DNA of 64,000 nt, from assembly GCA_030602885.1 (NCBI GenBank), contig JAUVYV010000002.1:62001-126000 (forward strand), given 5' to 3'. Each line of letters starts with the position of its first letter. The stretch's first letter is position 1. This DNA comes from Phycisphaerales bacterium (GTDB lineage: Bacteria; Planctomycetota; Phycisphaerae; Sedimentisphaerales; Anaerobacaceae). Position numbers and translations under genes: made by a program. The notes beneath the pieces are model-generated. The model searched no databases. It was not told the origin of the DNA and saw only the letters and a list, made by a program, of their open reading frames with translations. This document shows, in pieces, positions 12,445-17,363 of the stretch.

Positions 12445-14114
12445 TGCGTTTTCTCCTAAACAAGTGATTTATGCGGGCGACTGGGAGCCGCAGCGGCGAT
12501 GCTCAACTCACGATTGCCGCAGGAGGCGGGATCATGCCGGCTTCGCAGCGTATCTTAGTGGCACAACAGTCCGTATTCAGTCATTTGTCTTGTTGGCGTC
12601 AAATGTTAGGTCACCTGGCCAGCATGTCAAGGACAATCTGCCGAGACGGCAAGGGGTTACAAGCTGAGGAAGGTAATTAGGGTTCGGGGGCCAGATCCCC
12701 ACCGAAGGCGGGTAAAGGTTGGGGGGGTAGTATAAGTATAGCTTATAGTGTTTTGGAAAAGGGGTTAGAGGGGGGGGTGGAGGAATGGGCGGAAAGGGCG
12801 AATTCGGGGTCGAGAGGGGCCAACGGGACGGGTTTTCGCGTGCGGCGAAACGTGCGAAAGTGTGAAAAAAATTGAAAAAATCTGTGAAAAATGGCAGTGA
12901 AAAGGCAAAAAAACGCAAGAAAAAGGGGGTTTTGAGAGAATTCTTCGGAAGATTTGGGGGCCTTACTATTAGAAAAACTAATAGTATAAAGTCGTCTCTC
13001 GTCGCTCGTATCTCGTCGTTCGTATTTCGTTGGTTGAGGCGTGCTATGCACGCGGTGTTTTTATGACCCCGGCCTCGTAGGGCCGAGGTTAATTTAGGCG
13101 GGTCAAGATGGAATCGAGTGGTCATTTTTAGGCTTCCGAGTTTTTTCATTCACTATTTAGTTTCTGTATCTGCGCTTCATCGGGGGCTAAAGCGCCCCCC
13201 CATAATTAGGTTCGAGTTGCGCGTTTGGTGCGAAAATTCGCCCTTTTCGGCGCAGCCGATTTGCGTAAGTGCTTATGCAAACAAGAGTAAAAAAAGTTTT
13301 GGAATTTGGATTTTAGCGTGCAGGTACATGCGCGTTTGCGCTAAACGATCGTTTGAATTTCGCCTTTTCGGGGGCCAGTTCCTTCGACTTCGGCCCTTGG
13401 GGCCTTCGCTCAGGACCTCCGCTTTGCCCGCCGAATGGACGGCGGGCAAGCTCCGGCTTGCGCATTTGCGCCAAACGAACGGCGGGTAAATTTCAGTAGA
13501 TGGCAATGAGACCTAGCGCCAGGGGGAGGGAGAAATATCGGGCAGGTGAAGAGTGAGGTGAAGAGTTTTTAATCGCGGATTTTCACCACTAAGACGCGAA
13601 GTAACAAAAAAAGGTTCAAACCACGGATTGACACGGATTATCACGGATTAAGGATAGATTATAGCCACAGAGATCACAGAGACCACAGAGAGGTTTTTTC
13701 TTGGACGCAGATTAACACAGATTAACCCAGATTTTTTGCTAAGTGAAGTCTGAGCCAAGAGTTCGCTAAGAGGGATGGGCCGAGGGGGCTTGAAACCGCT
13801 AAATACTAACGAGTAAAAAAGGGTTGCAATCTCGGGCTATTTAGATATTATTTGGGCACGGATTTGGTTCGTATTGCGTATAGCGTATTGCTTGTTTGGC
13901 GGGGGGATCCGGCTTCGCCAGGGGCTACGCCGCGACAAGGGTCGATATACTCAATGAAGGCTCTCTTAGACGAGCGAAAAAGTCAAGATAGAGAAGGAAA
14001 ATTGACTGTCCCTAGTTTGACAGTTTGACGTGAAATGCGGCCGCTCAACTTGACTTTCGGCCTCGGTGGATTTGTTTTGAGAAAAGGAAAACACGATTTG
14101 ATGGGATCAAGTTA
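12445..14114. other. 1.7-kb repeat-rich non-coding region at the left edge of the accessory island
   Basis: I see no believable gene. Low-complexity tracts (poly-G near 12721-12780, A/T tracts near 12860-12980) generate proline- and phenylalanine-rich open frames on the minus strand that look spurious. Palindromic GGCGGGTAAA-type repeats lie at 12697-12718, 13426-13450 and 13470-13490. A CTTCGACTTCGGCCCTTGGG block lies at 13382. Short 'CACGGATT/CACAGAGA/CACAGATT' repeats fill 13588-13738. The composition becomes AT-rich towards 14100, where the next genes begin. Confidence 0.65.
13588..13738. repeat. Clustered short direct repeats (CACGGATT, ACCACAGAGA, ACACAGATTA)
   Basis: Three small families sit side by side: CACGGATT-type units at 13623-13650, CACAGAGA-type units at 13662-13692, and CAGATTAA-type units at 13707-13732. 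A related text (CACTGATTAACACTGATACGCAGATAG) occurs before dsbD at 22343. Such simple repeats are often scattered between genes in this phylum. No function is evident. Confidence 0.55.
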
Positions 14115-14609
14115 ATGAATTCAAAAGAACAATCAATAACCATAACAGTTTTAAGATGGTTGGCAGTCGTGCCCGGTGCGATACTTTTTCCAATTCTAAT
14201 TGATTTTCCAATCCACTGGCTTGTGCAACTAAAATTTTACTTTCTACCGCCGGATGAACCACATTTATTTGGATTTGTGTATTTTGATAATCCTGCTGAG
14301 TTTGAATATTTAATGTACGCGTTCTTTAATCCTTTGGCGATGATTTTAGCGGTAGCTTATATTACTCCCCATAAAAAGCTTATTGCCTCTGTGATTGCTT
14401 CAGTGCTATGTGTCGGTTTTATTGCAATTTCTTACTACTCCGTAATTGCAAGCGATGTCGGTATTGGTTTTAAGGACATTTTTGTAAAGTCAATCCTAAA
14501 CATAGCAGGTCTCACGTTGGCTTTAATATATGCTTACAGAAAAAACATAACACAAGAAATTATTGATAGCTCAAGGAAGTTAAGAAGGAAACAAGCAACA
14601 AGTACCTAA
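14115..14609 (+). CDS. Small multi-pass membrane protein of unknown function
   Basis: 164 residues with four hydrophobic segments (about 12-32, 60-80, 90-112 and 122-143) and a polar, lysine/arginine-rich C-terminus (SSRKLRRKQATST). No family is recognised. Base composition is clearly richer in A/T than the core genes on both sides, which suggests acquisition. It is followed by two more unknown genes in the same direction; no function can be assigned. Confidence 0.65.
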   Translation: MNSKEQSITITVLRWLAVVPGAILFPILIDFPIHWLVQLKFYFLPPDEPHLFGFVYFDNPAEFEYLMYAFFNPLAMILAVAYITPHKKLIASVIASVLCVGFIAISYYSVIASDVGIGFKDIFVKSILNIAGLTLALIYAYRKNITQEIIDSSRKLRRKQATST

Positions 14610-14641
14610 TCCTCTGGTTAGTGTAAATTCTGTTAAGCCCT

Positions 14642-14761
14642 GTGTATTTATTGCTTGCGGTTGGCGCTATATTGGTCACCATTAGCTTTATACTGCCTGT
14701 ATGTTGTTGTTTGATGATTTCTAAGATATTTAAGCGAAAGAAAGTAAATGAAATTCCTTAA
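14642..14761 (+). CDS. Possible 39-residue membrane micro-protein
   Basis: From GTG 14642 to TAA 14759-14761 the frame encodes VYLLLAVGAILVTISFILPV, then three cysteines and a basic tail (KIFKRKKVNEIP). This is a classic single-span profile with positive-inside charge. It overlaps the first 14 bases of the next gene. There is no ATG and no good ribosome site, and an in-frame stop lies a few codons upstream, so it may be chance or the end of a degraded gene. Confidence 0.28.
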   Translation: MYLLLAVGAILVTISFILPVCCCLMISKIFKRKKVNEIP

Positions 14762-15155
14762 AAAGATATTTGCTTCAAAGGAAGTCAATACTGCATTGGG
14801 AGTTCTTGATGAATTAGACTATATATGCGACAGTCCTGCCTTCCAATTGGCAAGAAAAGTCGTCGAGTCAACTATTTTAGCACGGCAGGAGAAGTTTGCT
14901 ATTGCCCTTAAAAAACAAGGTAGAACTCCACGTCAGAAAGTGTATTCAATGCTGGAGAGTGTTGTAGGAGACGACTTGGAAAGCGGGTATCACGATTTTT
15001 TCGTTTATAGAGGAGTGCTTACTCCAACTGGTGAGGAACTTCTTAAAGTATATGACCGCATCATAGATCAGATGAGAGAAATTGATTATATAAGCGAAGA
15101 AGAGGCGCAGAGGCAAAAAAGCAACATCAGAGACCGTATCAAAGAGGCAGGATAA
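14748..15155 (+). CDS. Small helical protein of unknown function
   Basis: 135 residues, predicted mostly helical and highly charged (many Lys/Arg and Glu), with no signal or membrane segment. The C-terminal half (EISEEEAQ-like acidic/basic helices) could be coiled coil. No family is recognised. It lies in the AT-rich island between a membrane protein and the Abi-alpha gene, on the same strand. Gene status rests on composition and ATG placement only. Confidence 0.6.
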   Translation: MKFLKKIFASKEVNTALGVLDELDYICDSPAFQLARKVVESTILARQEKFAIALKKQGRTPRQKVYSMLESVVGDDLESGYHDFFVYRGVLTPTGEELLKVYDRIIDQMREIDYISEEEAQRQKSNIRDRIKEAG

Positions 15156-15282
15156 TGTAATGTTTGATGGAAAAGGAATATTTGTTTGGTTGGGTAGCAT
15201 GTGCAATTGGACGAGTCCGCCGTCCCGCCAAACAAGCGGCGGGTAAAAGGCGGATAAATATTGAAGAAGCAACGGGAACTTC

Positions 15283-15299
15283 TTATACAGACTGTATAA
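15283..15299. promoter_or_regulatory. Perfect 17-nt palindrome, candidate operator of the Abi-alpha gene
   Basis: TTATACAG-A-CTGTATAA, 29 bp before the ATG at 15328. Its right arm overlaps a consensus -10 box (TATAAT at 15295-15300). A dimeric repressor binding here would cover the promoter, which is a common way to keep a toxic defence gene silent. No regulator gene is adjacent, and a convincing -35 box is not seen. Confidence 0.45.
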
Positions 15300-15327
15300 T
15301 CATTGTTATACCTACGAAAGGAGTCCA

Positions 15328-16029
15328 ATGAGTGAAACTGAAGAAATAGCAAAAGCGATACAGGAATCTGCAAAGCTAGGAGAGAAAGGTTTAGAAATTG
15401 CCGATAAAGCAGGCAGGTTTTTTGCTAAAGTCTTCAAAGAGCCCGTTAACGAAATTTCGGGAATTATTACCGACAAATTGCGCTTCATTAGATGGAGGCG
15501 CATGGTTCAAATGGCAGATGAGGTCAATAAGATTTTAGACGAAAAGAAAGTTGAAGATACAAGAGCGGTTCAGCCTAAAATTGCATTGCCGATTCTTGAA
15601 GAGTCATCGTTAGAAGATGACCCAAATCTTCAATATCTTTGGAATCATTTATTGGCAAATGCAATGAACCCAAACTTTAATGATGAAATCAGGTATGGCT
15701 TCACTGAAATGATTAAGAATATTACAGGCATTGAAGCCCTAATTCTAAGCGAGTTCTACAAAATATTGGAAAAAGAAAATCGGCTCACACCCCTTTCTGA
15801 AATTCACAATTATAGCTTAAAGAAAGAGCAACTAATCGATGGACTAAAAATGTCTCCAGATCAATATGCTGTATCTGCAAATAATTTGATGAGAATGCAG
15901 TTATTAGGCCCTGCTGTATTGAAAGGTGGGGTTAAAATGGGTTCAGAACCGTTGACAATTTTTAAGGGTATTGACGCTGTAACATTAACACCTCTTGGTG
16001 TAAAATTTATTGAAGCCTGCATGAAATAA
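15328..16029 (+). CDS. Abi-alpha family (DUF4393) protein, candidate phage-defence gene
   Basis: 233 residues, no signal or membrane segment. The DUF4393/Abi-alpha signature is visible: KPKIALPILEESSLED-like text around residues 84-100 (PKIALPILEESSLEDDPNL) followed by LQYLWNHLLANAMNPNF. The family is named after an abortive-infection gene; its mechanism is not established. An amphipathic N-terminal stretch (IAKAIQESAKLGEKGLEIA) is typical. Ribosome site GAAAGGAGTCCA precedes ATG 15328. A palindrome overlaps the promoter, and an integron-type attC-like site starts one base after the stop codon, the normal place for a cassette recombination site. AT-rich composition supports transfer. Confidence 0.78.
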   Translation: MSETEEIAKAIQESAKLGEKGLEIADKAGRFFAKVFKEPVNEISGIITDKLRFIRWRRMVQMADEVNKILDEKKVEDTRAVQPKIALPILEESSLEDDPNLQYLWNHLLANAMNPNFNDEIRYGFTEMIKNITGIEALILSEFYKILEKENRLTPLSEIHNYSLKKEQLIDGLKMSPDQYAVSANNLMRMQLLGPAVLKGGVKMGSEPLTIFKGIDAVTLTPLGVKFIEACMK

Positions 16030-16030
16030 G

Positions 16031-16139
16031 GGCTAACAAGGCGCTGCACCTGACCGCTGTTCAGCGATAAATAAAGCGGGCGAAGGCGAGCCGAGTAACA
16101 CTGAAATGGTTGTGCTGTGAAAAAAGCGGCTTGTTATGC
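16031..16139 (+). repeat. attC-like (59-base element) recombination site
   Basis: The left core GGCTAAC (16031-16037) and right core GTTATGC (16133-16139) fit the RYYYAAC/GTTRRRY pattern with one or two departures. The arms TAACAAGGCGCT (16034-16045) and AGCGGCTTGTTA (16125-16136) pair at 11 of 12 positions with a single central mismatch, as in folded attC sites. Total length is 109 bp, within the usual 57-141. It begins directly after the stop codon of the Abi-alpha gene. No integrase gene and no second attC are visible, so this would be a lone cassette. Confidence 0.6.
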
Positions 16140-16153
16140 GGAAAGGAGCAGAA

Positions 16154-16852
16154 ATGACTGAGCAGATATCGCCAAAAGTCTGCAAGATGAAGACCAAGAA
16201 ACACATTGTGCTTCTTATCATAGGCATCATTGCGACAATCACCGCCCAATGTTTCAAAATGCATAATCCCAGCGCATACACGCTCGGTGGCCTCCTTGCT
16301 TTCATTCTGATTCAGCCGGTTTCATATTTTGTGATTCTTAGCATCATCGGCCTAATTGTTGCCGCAATTCGCAGAAACATCAGAAAATTCTGGTTTCCTA
16401 TCTTGGCTTGGCTGTTCCTTGTAGCTGGTCTCTTTGACATCGTTGTCGGTGGATTTACTGAATTTGTTCTACGGCCGAAAGCTAATCAAGCTATTGAGGA
16501 ATTAGTTCGAAGTGGTAAAATCGAAGAACTTACTAAATTTGATCCCAGAGAACGTATATTAGGACATTGGTCATCTGAAGATGATTTGACCCATCAATAT
16601 TTTGGCCCAAACAATCATTTGATAATTGTAAATCTTGGCCAGCAGAAAGCTGTAAAATACTCTATTGAAAATTTCAGTGTGATTGAGAGGTGGATAAAAT
16701 TTAATGTTTCAGGTGCAGATTATGATCCTCATACAAGAACAATGTATTTTCTTAGTGACGGGACCGCATGGCAAACCATAGAGTCCTCTTTTGGTAAGTT
16801 CAAGTCGAAATTAAAGCATGTGGGACCAGAGCAGTCTCCGGGTGGGAATTAG
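16154..16852 (+). CDS. Membrane-anchored protein of unknown function
   Basis: About 232 residues from ATG 16154, chosen because GGAAAGGAGCAG precedes it; an upstream in-frame ATG at 16136 lies inside the attC-like site. Three hydrophobic segments (about 20-38, 43-70 and 82-105) are followed by a soluble C-terminal domain. In that domain, FDPRERILGHWSSEDD resembles small lipocalin-like or 'META-type' beta domains that begin with a GxW motif, but no family can be named. It lies just after the attC-like site, in the position of a following cassette, yet no attC follows it. Confidence 0.62.
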   Translation: MTEQISPKVCKMKTKKHIVLLIIGIIATITAQCFKMHNPSAYTLGGLLAFILIQPVSYFVILSIIGLIVAAIRRNIRKFWFPILAWLFLVAGLFDIVVGGFTEFVLRPKANQAIEELVRSGKIEELTKFDPRERILGHWSSEDDLTHQYFGPNNHLIIVNLGQQKAVKYSIENFSVIERWIKFNVSGADYDPHTRTMYFLSDGTAWQTIESSFGKFKSKLKHVGPEQSPGGN

Positions 16853-17363
16853 AGTTGTCCGGCCTTTCAACTGGTAAATGATTATTGATTATTGTGGGGC
16901 GGCCCCGGTGAGATAGGCAAAGGCGGCCATCTCACGGGGTAAACGTGGGGAAATAGTCGCCTGCGGGGCAGGCGAGGAGGGGAATGACAAAGTCGTTGTG
17001 AAGGTGTCAGCGTCTTCGGATGTGCCCTCGGCCAAAGGCCGAGGCTATATAGGTCGCCTGCGGGGCAGGCGAAGAGGGGAATGACAAAGTCGTTGTGAAG
17101 GTGTCAGCATCTTCGGATGTGCCCTCGGCCAAAGGCCGAGGCTATATAGGTCGCCTGCGTCCGGATTCGGCGGGATGTGGAAGCAAGCAGAGCTTGCGGT
17201 TTTTTTGCCTTGTTTCTTGGTTTGCATAGTATCGAAGAGGGGGTATAATGCGGGGGATTCCCCATCACAGGGGTGGGGGTTAAATATGGGTTGCAGGTTG
17301 TAAGTTGGGTCCCCTGTTGCGGGATCAAGGAAGCAGGCACTCGGGGATTCGGCGAAGATAGGA
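16853..17363. other. Intergenic region with hairpins and a 97-bp tandem repeat
   Basis: No gene is seen. A hairpin formed by CCGGTGAGAT and ATCTCACGG lies near 16904-16937. The 97-bp tandem repeat follows (16956-17159), then a stretch leading into the TPR gene. This looks like the right border of the AT-rich island, where GC content rises again. Confidence 0.65.
16956..17159. repeat. 97-bp tandem repeat, two copies plus a 10-nt third start
   Basis: Units start at 16956, 17053 and 17150 with GTCGCCTGCG, an exact period of 97 bp, and the two full copies differ at only a few positions. Each unit contains two hairpins (GCCTGCGGGGCAGGC and CCTCGGCCAAAGGCCGAGG) and the text GGGAATGACAAAGTCGTTGT. 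Near-identical text (GGGAATGACAGAGTCGTTAT) recurs at 34580, so this is a local amplification of a dispersed repeat. Confidence 0.8.

Follow-up and report, generated by a model that had tools for sequence, protein, structure and literature searches.

The Abi-alpha (DUF4393) gene described here is probably a former single integron cassette that is now fixed behind a broken attC site. It was found in a window of 64,000 nucleotides (the whole stretch of DNA that was analysed; G000:C124:62001-126000) belonging to a 3.2-Mb genome of 128 contigs, which is 97.6% complete and 0.7% contaminated. The first-pass annotation had proposed that the gene was packaged like an integron cassette. This proposal was borne out with respect to the origin of the gene by an attC 5' arm directly behind it, its foreign composition, core sequences at both ends, and the presence of attC sites and intI genes in the family of the host, but not with respect to an intact site. 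The features of the region are listed in Table 1.

Table 1. Features in and around the Abi-alpha gene (positions in the window)
Feature	Position	Strand	Remarks
164-aa ORF	14115..14609	+	low-GC island; probably a membrane protein; no family
135-aa ORF	14748..15155	+	low-GC island; no family; no attC behind
Palindrome TATACAG-A-CTGTATA	15284..15298		overlaps TATAAT (15295-15300); just outside the proposed cassette
GTTATAC, proposed left cassette end (G^TTATAC)	15305..15311	+	16 nt before the abi ATG; putative boundary
Abi_alpha (DUF4393) gene, 233 aa	15328..16029	+	PF14337, 81.8 bits; PADLOC PDC-S47, 44.9 bits; GC3 0.33
Intact attC 5' arm: R'' GGCTAAC, spacer, L'', loop start	16031..16062	+	32 nt identical to attC L036:6183-6214
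Damaged trace of L', AGCGGGCgaAGGcGAGC	16075..16091	+	at the expected place
GTTATGC, possible displaced R' and right cassette end (G^TTATGC)	16133..16139	+	core of 3 of 85 attC sites
232-aa ORF after the site	16154..16852	+	N-terminal half hydrophobic; no family; no attC behind

The Abi-alpha gene and the low-GC island

The predicted 233-aa product matched the Abi_alpha profile PF14337 at 81.8 bits, well over the cut-off of 29, between residues 62 and 231, and the PADLOC candidate PDC-S47 at 44.9 bits. The GC content of the gene is 0.37 and its GC3 is 0.33, compared with 0.56 and 0.60-0.70 in the flanking asnA and TPR genes, and the gene is foreign in composition. Both the family assignment and the AT-richness reported for it earlier were confirmed. 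The Abi-alpha protein of E. faecalis (DUF4393; EF2833 of prophage 6) aborts infection via premature lysis (PMC6356687), a phenotype that has been demonstrated for EF2833 only (PMC6356687). By membership in the same family, the window protein is most likely an abortive-infection factor that causes too-early lysis of infected cells. An AlphaFold model of the protein computed without an alignment was discarded (pLDDT 37), and its PDB sequence matches, which were weak and helical (protein A and a designed protein), were rejected as low-complexity likeness.

Homologues at this level of similarity are rare and were found in 4 of the 392 genomes of the phylum, the own genome included. The closest homologues (37.5%) are encoded by three Vibrio filamentous phages, and the single plasmid homologue (27.6%) lies beside tni-type transposition genes. 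No attC adjoined the homologues in the phages, the plasmid and the other genomes searched. The DUF4393 gene at L075:6566-7285, 37.5% identical to the window protein, is an accessory gene of Vibrio filamentous phages of 8.6-10.9 kb.

The Abi-alpha gene is located in a low-GC island of 2.9 kb (about 14.0-16.85 kb), which has a GC content of roughly 0.35-0.45 in surroundings of mostly 0.48-0.58. The flanks of host composition are the gene for the aspartate-ammonia ligase AsnA and the gene for a TPR protein, after which comes an FtsH-like gene (identified by reading). The island holds four ORFs, and the three besides Abi-alpha matched no family in Pfam, PADLOC, NCBIfam or PHROGs. Plasmid homologues were found for none of these three, a search of viral contigs with two of them gave no homologue either, and none of the ORFs of the island was recognised as a gene of phage, plasmid or transposition type. 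The idea that the adjoining small ORFs are partners of the Abi-alpha gene gained no support, as they are without attC and without detectable homologues in the collections searched.

Two near-exact copies of a 23-nt hairpin repeat (CCGCCAAACNANCGGCGGGTAAA) were observed at 13468-13490 and 15225-15247, the latter inside the island between the ORF at 14748 and the abi gene, and 14 nt of this repeat recur inverted at 13890-13903. Separately, a tandem duplication of 97 bp (16956-17149; two copies 98% alike) stands directly before the TPR gene.

The low GC content that the three neighbouring ORFs share without any attC speaks against the cassette reading, and the island may therefore have been acquired whole, as a larger unit. 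In a rival account, the attC half and the abi gene are of separate origin, the island being the remnant of a phage, satellite or plasmid and the arm a stray piece of a cassette array. The composition common to the four ORFs, the closest homologue in filamentous phages, the plasmid homologue next to tni-type genes and the homologues lacking an adjoining attC would all fit such a history. However, the arm follows the abi stop after 1 nt and in cassette orientation, which would be rare by chance placement, and the ORFs of the island include no phage, plasmid or transposition gene that could be found. Separate origins are considered unlikely, and the arrival of gene and site together as a single cassette is preferred.

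The attC 5' arm and related sites in other genomes

The stop codon of the abi gene ends at 16029 and GGCTAACAAGGCGCTGCACCTGACCGCTGTTC/GGCTAAC begins at 16031, with 1 nt between them. The cores GGCTAAC (16031) and GTTATGC (16133-16139) were both present as the first-pass annotation had described them. The 24-mer TAACAAGGCGCTGCACCTGACCGC (16034-16057) occurs as a single copy in the own genome, even when 3 mismatches are allowed, and is found exactly in 40 other stretches (genome contigs) from many bacterial and archaeal phyla, with carriers including Campylobacterales, Heimdallarchaeota, Spirochaetales, Omnitrophota, Chloroflexi, Planctomycetota and Nitrospirae. Over its opening 32 nt, the site in the window is identical to a Chloroflexi site (L036:6183). 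The R'' and L'' boxes thus stand directly after the candidate cassette gene, with 24 of 24 nt matching. As judged from its sequence, the stretch that begins 1 nt behind the abi stop is a genuine attC 5' arm, and the site is identified as attC because of the identity and position of this arm, not because of its covariance score.

The same 24-nt attC arm recurs without a mismatch in an Asgard archaeon and in many bacterial phyla, among genomes as well as MAGs (L009-L048). This sharing across phyla is a sign of wide cassette exchange, or of binning contamination in some of the MAGs.

The elements that share the 24-mer have the properties of attC sites. In nearly all carriers, the 24-mer forms the start of a palindrome about 72 nt long (consensus GCCTAACAAGGCGCTGCACCTGACCGCTATTCCGCTGCGCTCCATAGCGGCAGGTGAGCTTGGTCGTTAGG), and compensatory changes were found in 11 of the 22 pairs of its arms, a count reached by none of 500 shuffles. 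Two covariance models were used, namely R1, which was built from 40 sites sharing the 24-mer and is biased to it because its training sites were chosen by it, and the broader R2, built from 85 sites. R1 revealed further copies in the same orientation at distances of 0.5-5.7 kb; L029, for example, has six, and L031 and L041 have five each. A same-strand stop codon lies at most 60 nt from the start of the site in 65 of the 80 testable cases, compared with 25% of random points. An IntI match (E < 1e-40) was obtained in half of the host genomes searched (15 of 30), and 11 of those were over the cut-off. Among 60 genomes comprising the own genome and relatives, R1 matches were detected in 20 and IntI over the cut-off in 4; an R1 match and an IntI match were located on one contig in G026:C193 and G059:C170. 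These results show that the taxonomic family of the host includes members with attC sites and with intI genes.

No IntI was found in the own genome at its completeness of 97.6%, the best of 35 tyrosine-recombinase matches reaching 85.8 bits against a cut-off of 265. The tyrosine recombinases of the genome were rejected as IntI on profile score, and the two best matches read as XerC/XerD-like. No second attC was detected in the genome with R1 or R2, nor in the island with filters off too. The check suggested in the first-pass annotation, a search for more attC sites or an intI gene elsewhere in the genome, accordingly yielded neither. The intI gene of a complete integron was not found, and the genome has one match where a CALIN has at least two attC sites within 4 kb. 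Two attC sites are the usual minimum for a CALIN (PMC9024848), and single sites can still be true (PMC9024848). An attC site without an integrase can arise in three published ways, through off-target insertion, intI loss or rearrangement (PMC8618304).

Many short contigs of the own genome (3-9 kb), among them C28, C4, C105, C58 and C21 (L111-L115), each encode a tyrosine recombinase of about 200 aa. DNA similarity among the five that were compared is 65-79%, and most of them have further small ORFs in common, in some cases with a protein of tail-collar-like type. These contigs resemble small elements of phage or satellite type that form one family present in multiple copies.

The 3' half of the site and the cassette boundaries

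The window site was scored by R1 at 22.7 bits over 16031-16101 (E of 2e-4 in the window and 0.011 genome-wide), whereas other sites with the same 24-mer scored 44-99.6 bits. R2 gave 16.3 bits (E of 0.1 in the window and 5 genome-wide). In both covariance alignments, the 5' arm was perfect and the 3' arm poor, and the match ended at 16101. The sequence GAGTAACAC stands at the standard place of R', and neither complementary L' and R' boxes nor a covariance score like those of known sites was found. The single-strand DNA fold had a z value of 0.35 for the 71-nt version and -0.08 for the 109-nt version, neither of which beats shuffles, compared with -2.3 to -3.7 for four of five control attC sites, each folded as one strand (the top strand for L029). 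The fifth control, L033 (131 nt, with a long loop), reached a z value of -0.68, so that folding alone is not decisive for long sites. An Rfam scan of the region and the window gave nothing relevant, and a plasmid match to the 109-bp site, consisting of 23 nt inside a fimbrial gene, was taken as chance.

Therefore, the 109-bp attC-like site reported by the first-pass annotation holds for its 5' arm but not as a whole. A covariance score far below threshold had been named there as a result that would speak against the site, and this was found in part, since the score lies far below those of intact sites and the 3' arm is decayed. The site is thus probably a fossil.

The score of the complete site, marginal genome-wide when taken alone, would be compatible with an attC likeness that arose by chance. 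However, the identity over 24 of 24 nt (32 nt to L036) is to an attC arm found across phyla and present once in this genome, and it appears in the correct orientation 1 nt after a stop codon. Chance is hardly credible as an explanation of the likeness; for the 5' arm it is refuted in practice, and the 3' part alone could have arisen in this way.

A damaged trace of L' may be seen in the 3' half. When 16063-16102 was compared with 34 attC 3' halves, the mean similarity was reached by 6 of 500 shuffles and the best single alignment by 408 of 2000. An unconstrained local test of the L' trace was not significant (566 of 2000), and its match to the L036-type box (1 of 2000) was chosen after the fact. 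Of the positions in the 15-mer ending in GTTATGC, 12 of 15 can pair with the opening 15 nt of the site, and 18 of 20000 dinucleotide shuffles did as well. Both traces would be accommodated most simply by a canonical attC whose damaged L' is set apart from R' by about 35 nt of extra sequence; the end of the site would be either 16101 or 16139. An abrupt replacement of the 3' arm at the hairpin apex was also considered and is weakened by the L' trace.

Alternatively, 16031-16139 might be an attC that is intact though atypical, its loop being long and its outer stem running through the spacer, and the cassette would still be mobile if an integrase were supplied. The outer-arm pairing, the R' core GTTATGC 14 nt before the next ATG and the similarly poor fold of L033 are consistent with such a site. 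On the other hand, the perfect L'' finds no partner in L' that extends over the expected length, the match to either covariance model stops at 16101, and an outer pairing of 12 of 15 positions occurs in only 2 of the 85 real sites, in which the spacer is normally unpaired. An intact atypical site appears quite improbable. Less probable still is a lone Abi-alpha cassette placed at an attG-type site by an integrase in trans, whose 109-bp site would be a new attC variant with its outer stem through the spacer and would still be able to recombine. A decayed canonical attC is the reading followed below.

The proposed left core, GTTATAC, is the R' core in 4 of the 85 real attC sites, and GTTATGC in 3. 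The plus strand of 13500-17300 has GTTAT[AG]C at two positions only, 15305 and 16133, and both cores are followed by the Shine-Dalgarno sequence GAAAGGAG. A cassette of about 15306-16133 is plausible on the evidence of these cores. No attC, attI or attC 3' end was recognised before 15305, and a left end without attC would mean, if the boundary is right, that the insertion was of the non-attC (attG) type or that a neighbour was lost. A search for the empty site by way of the conserved TPR gene gave no readable one, and the upstream synteny is not conserved between genera. The palindrome previously placed over the -10 box of the gene does overlap TATAAT; however, no acceptable -35 was found with it, and the promoter scan made no call there.

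Proposed origin and comparison with known systems

In summary, the abi gene and its attC (about 15306-16133) would have arrived as one integron cassette. Its insertion may have been the work of an integron integrase acting in trans, which would have placed it at a genomic site other than attC or as part of a small array that was lost later. The 3' arm of attC would then have decayed through damage to L' and through loss of the R' core or its shift by about 35 nt, and the cassette would thereby have become fixed in the chromosome. For a single-cassette insertion at 15305/16133, the empty site would read ...AATCATTG/TTATGCGGAAAGG... We infer the insertion event, its boundaries and the loss of function of the site from these features. 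The earlier proposal that cassettes move into this genome can be maintained for a past event; present mobility of the cassette is not supported, with no intI or other attC found here.

If this reading is right, the locus would be a natural example of cassettes seeding chromosomal defence genes without an integron and becoming fixed upon attC decay, and Abi-alpha would join the defence families that travel as cassettes. Default integron searches omit single or broken attC sites, and cassette-derived defence genes may be undercounted. Abi-alpha as an integron cassette was not found in the open literature searched.

The E. faecalis Abi-alpha EF2833 belongs to the same Pfam family (DUF4393/PF14337), of which the window protein is a distant member; EF2833 is a prophage gene, whereas the window gene has a cassette-like setting. 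Defence genes in integrons are the subject of Getz 2025 and Kieffer 2025, going by their titles as cited in PMC12444791, and integron defence cassettes likewise consist of a cassette-borne defence gene, although the window gene lies outside an active array. Similarly to CALINs and lone integrase-less attC sites, the locus comprises a gene followed by an attC arm, with no intI, a foreign composition, and relatives that have attC and intI. It differs from a CALIN in having one site only, below the two-attC minimum, and in the degraded 3' half of that site. Insertion of cassettes at attG sites has been described by Loot et al. 2024, as cited in PMC12901181 and PMC12444791. Cassettes inserted in this manner are likewise lone and are bounded on the left by neither an attC nor an attI, and the window cassette would resemble them if its presumed insertion is correct. 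Lone cassettes, off-target insertion, decayed sites and defence cassettes are all of known kinds.
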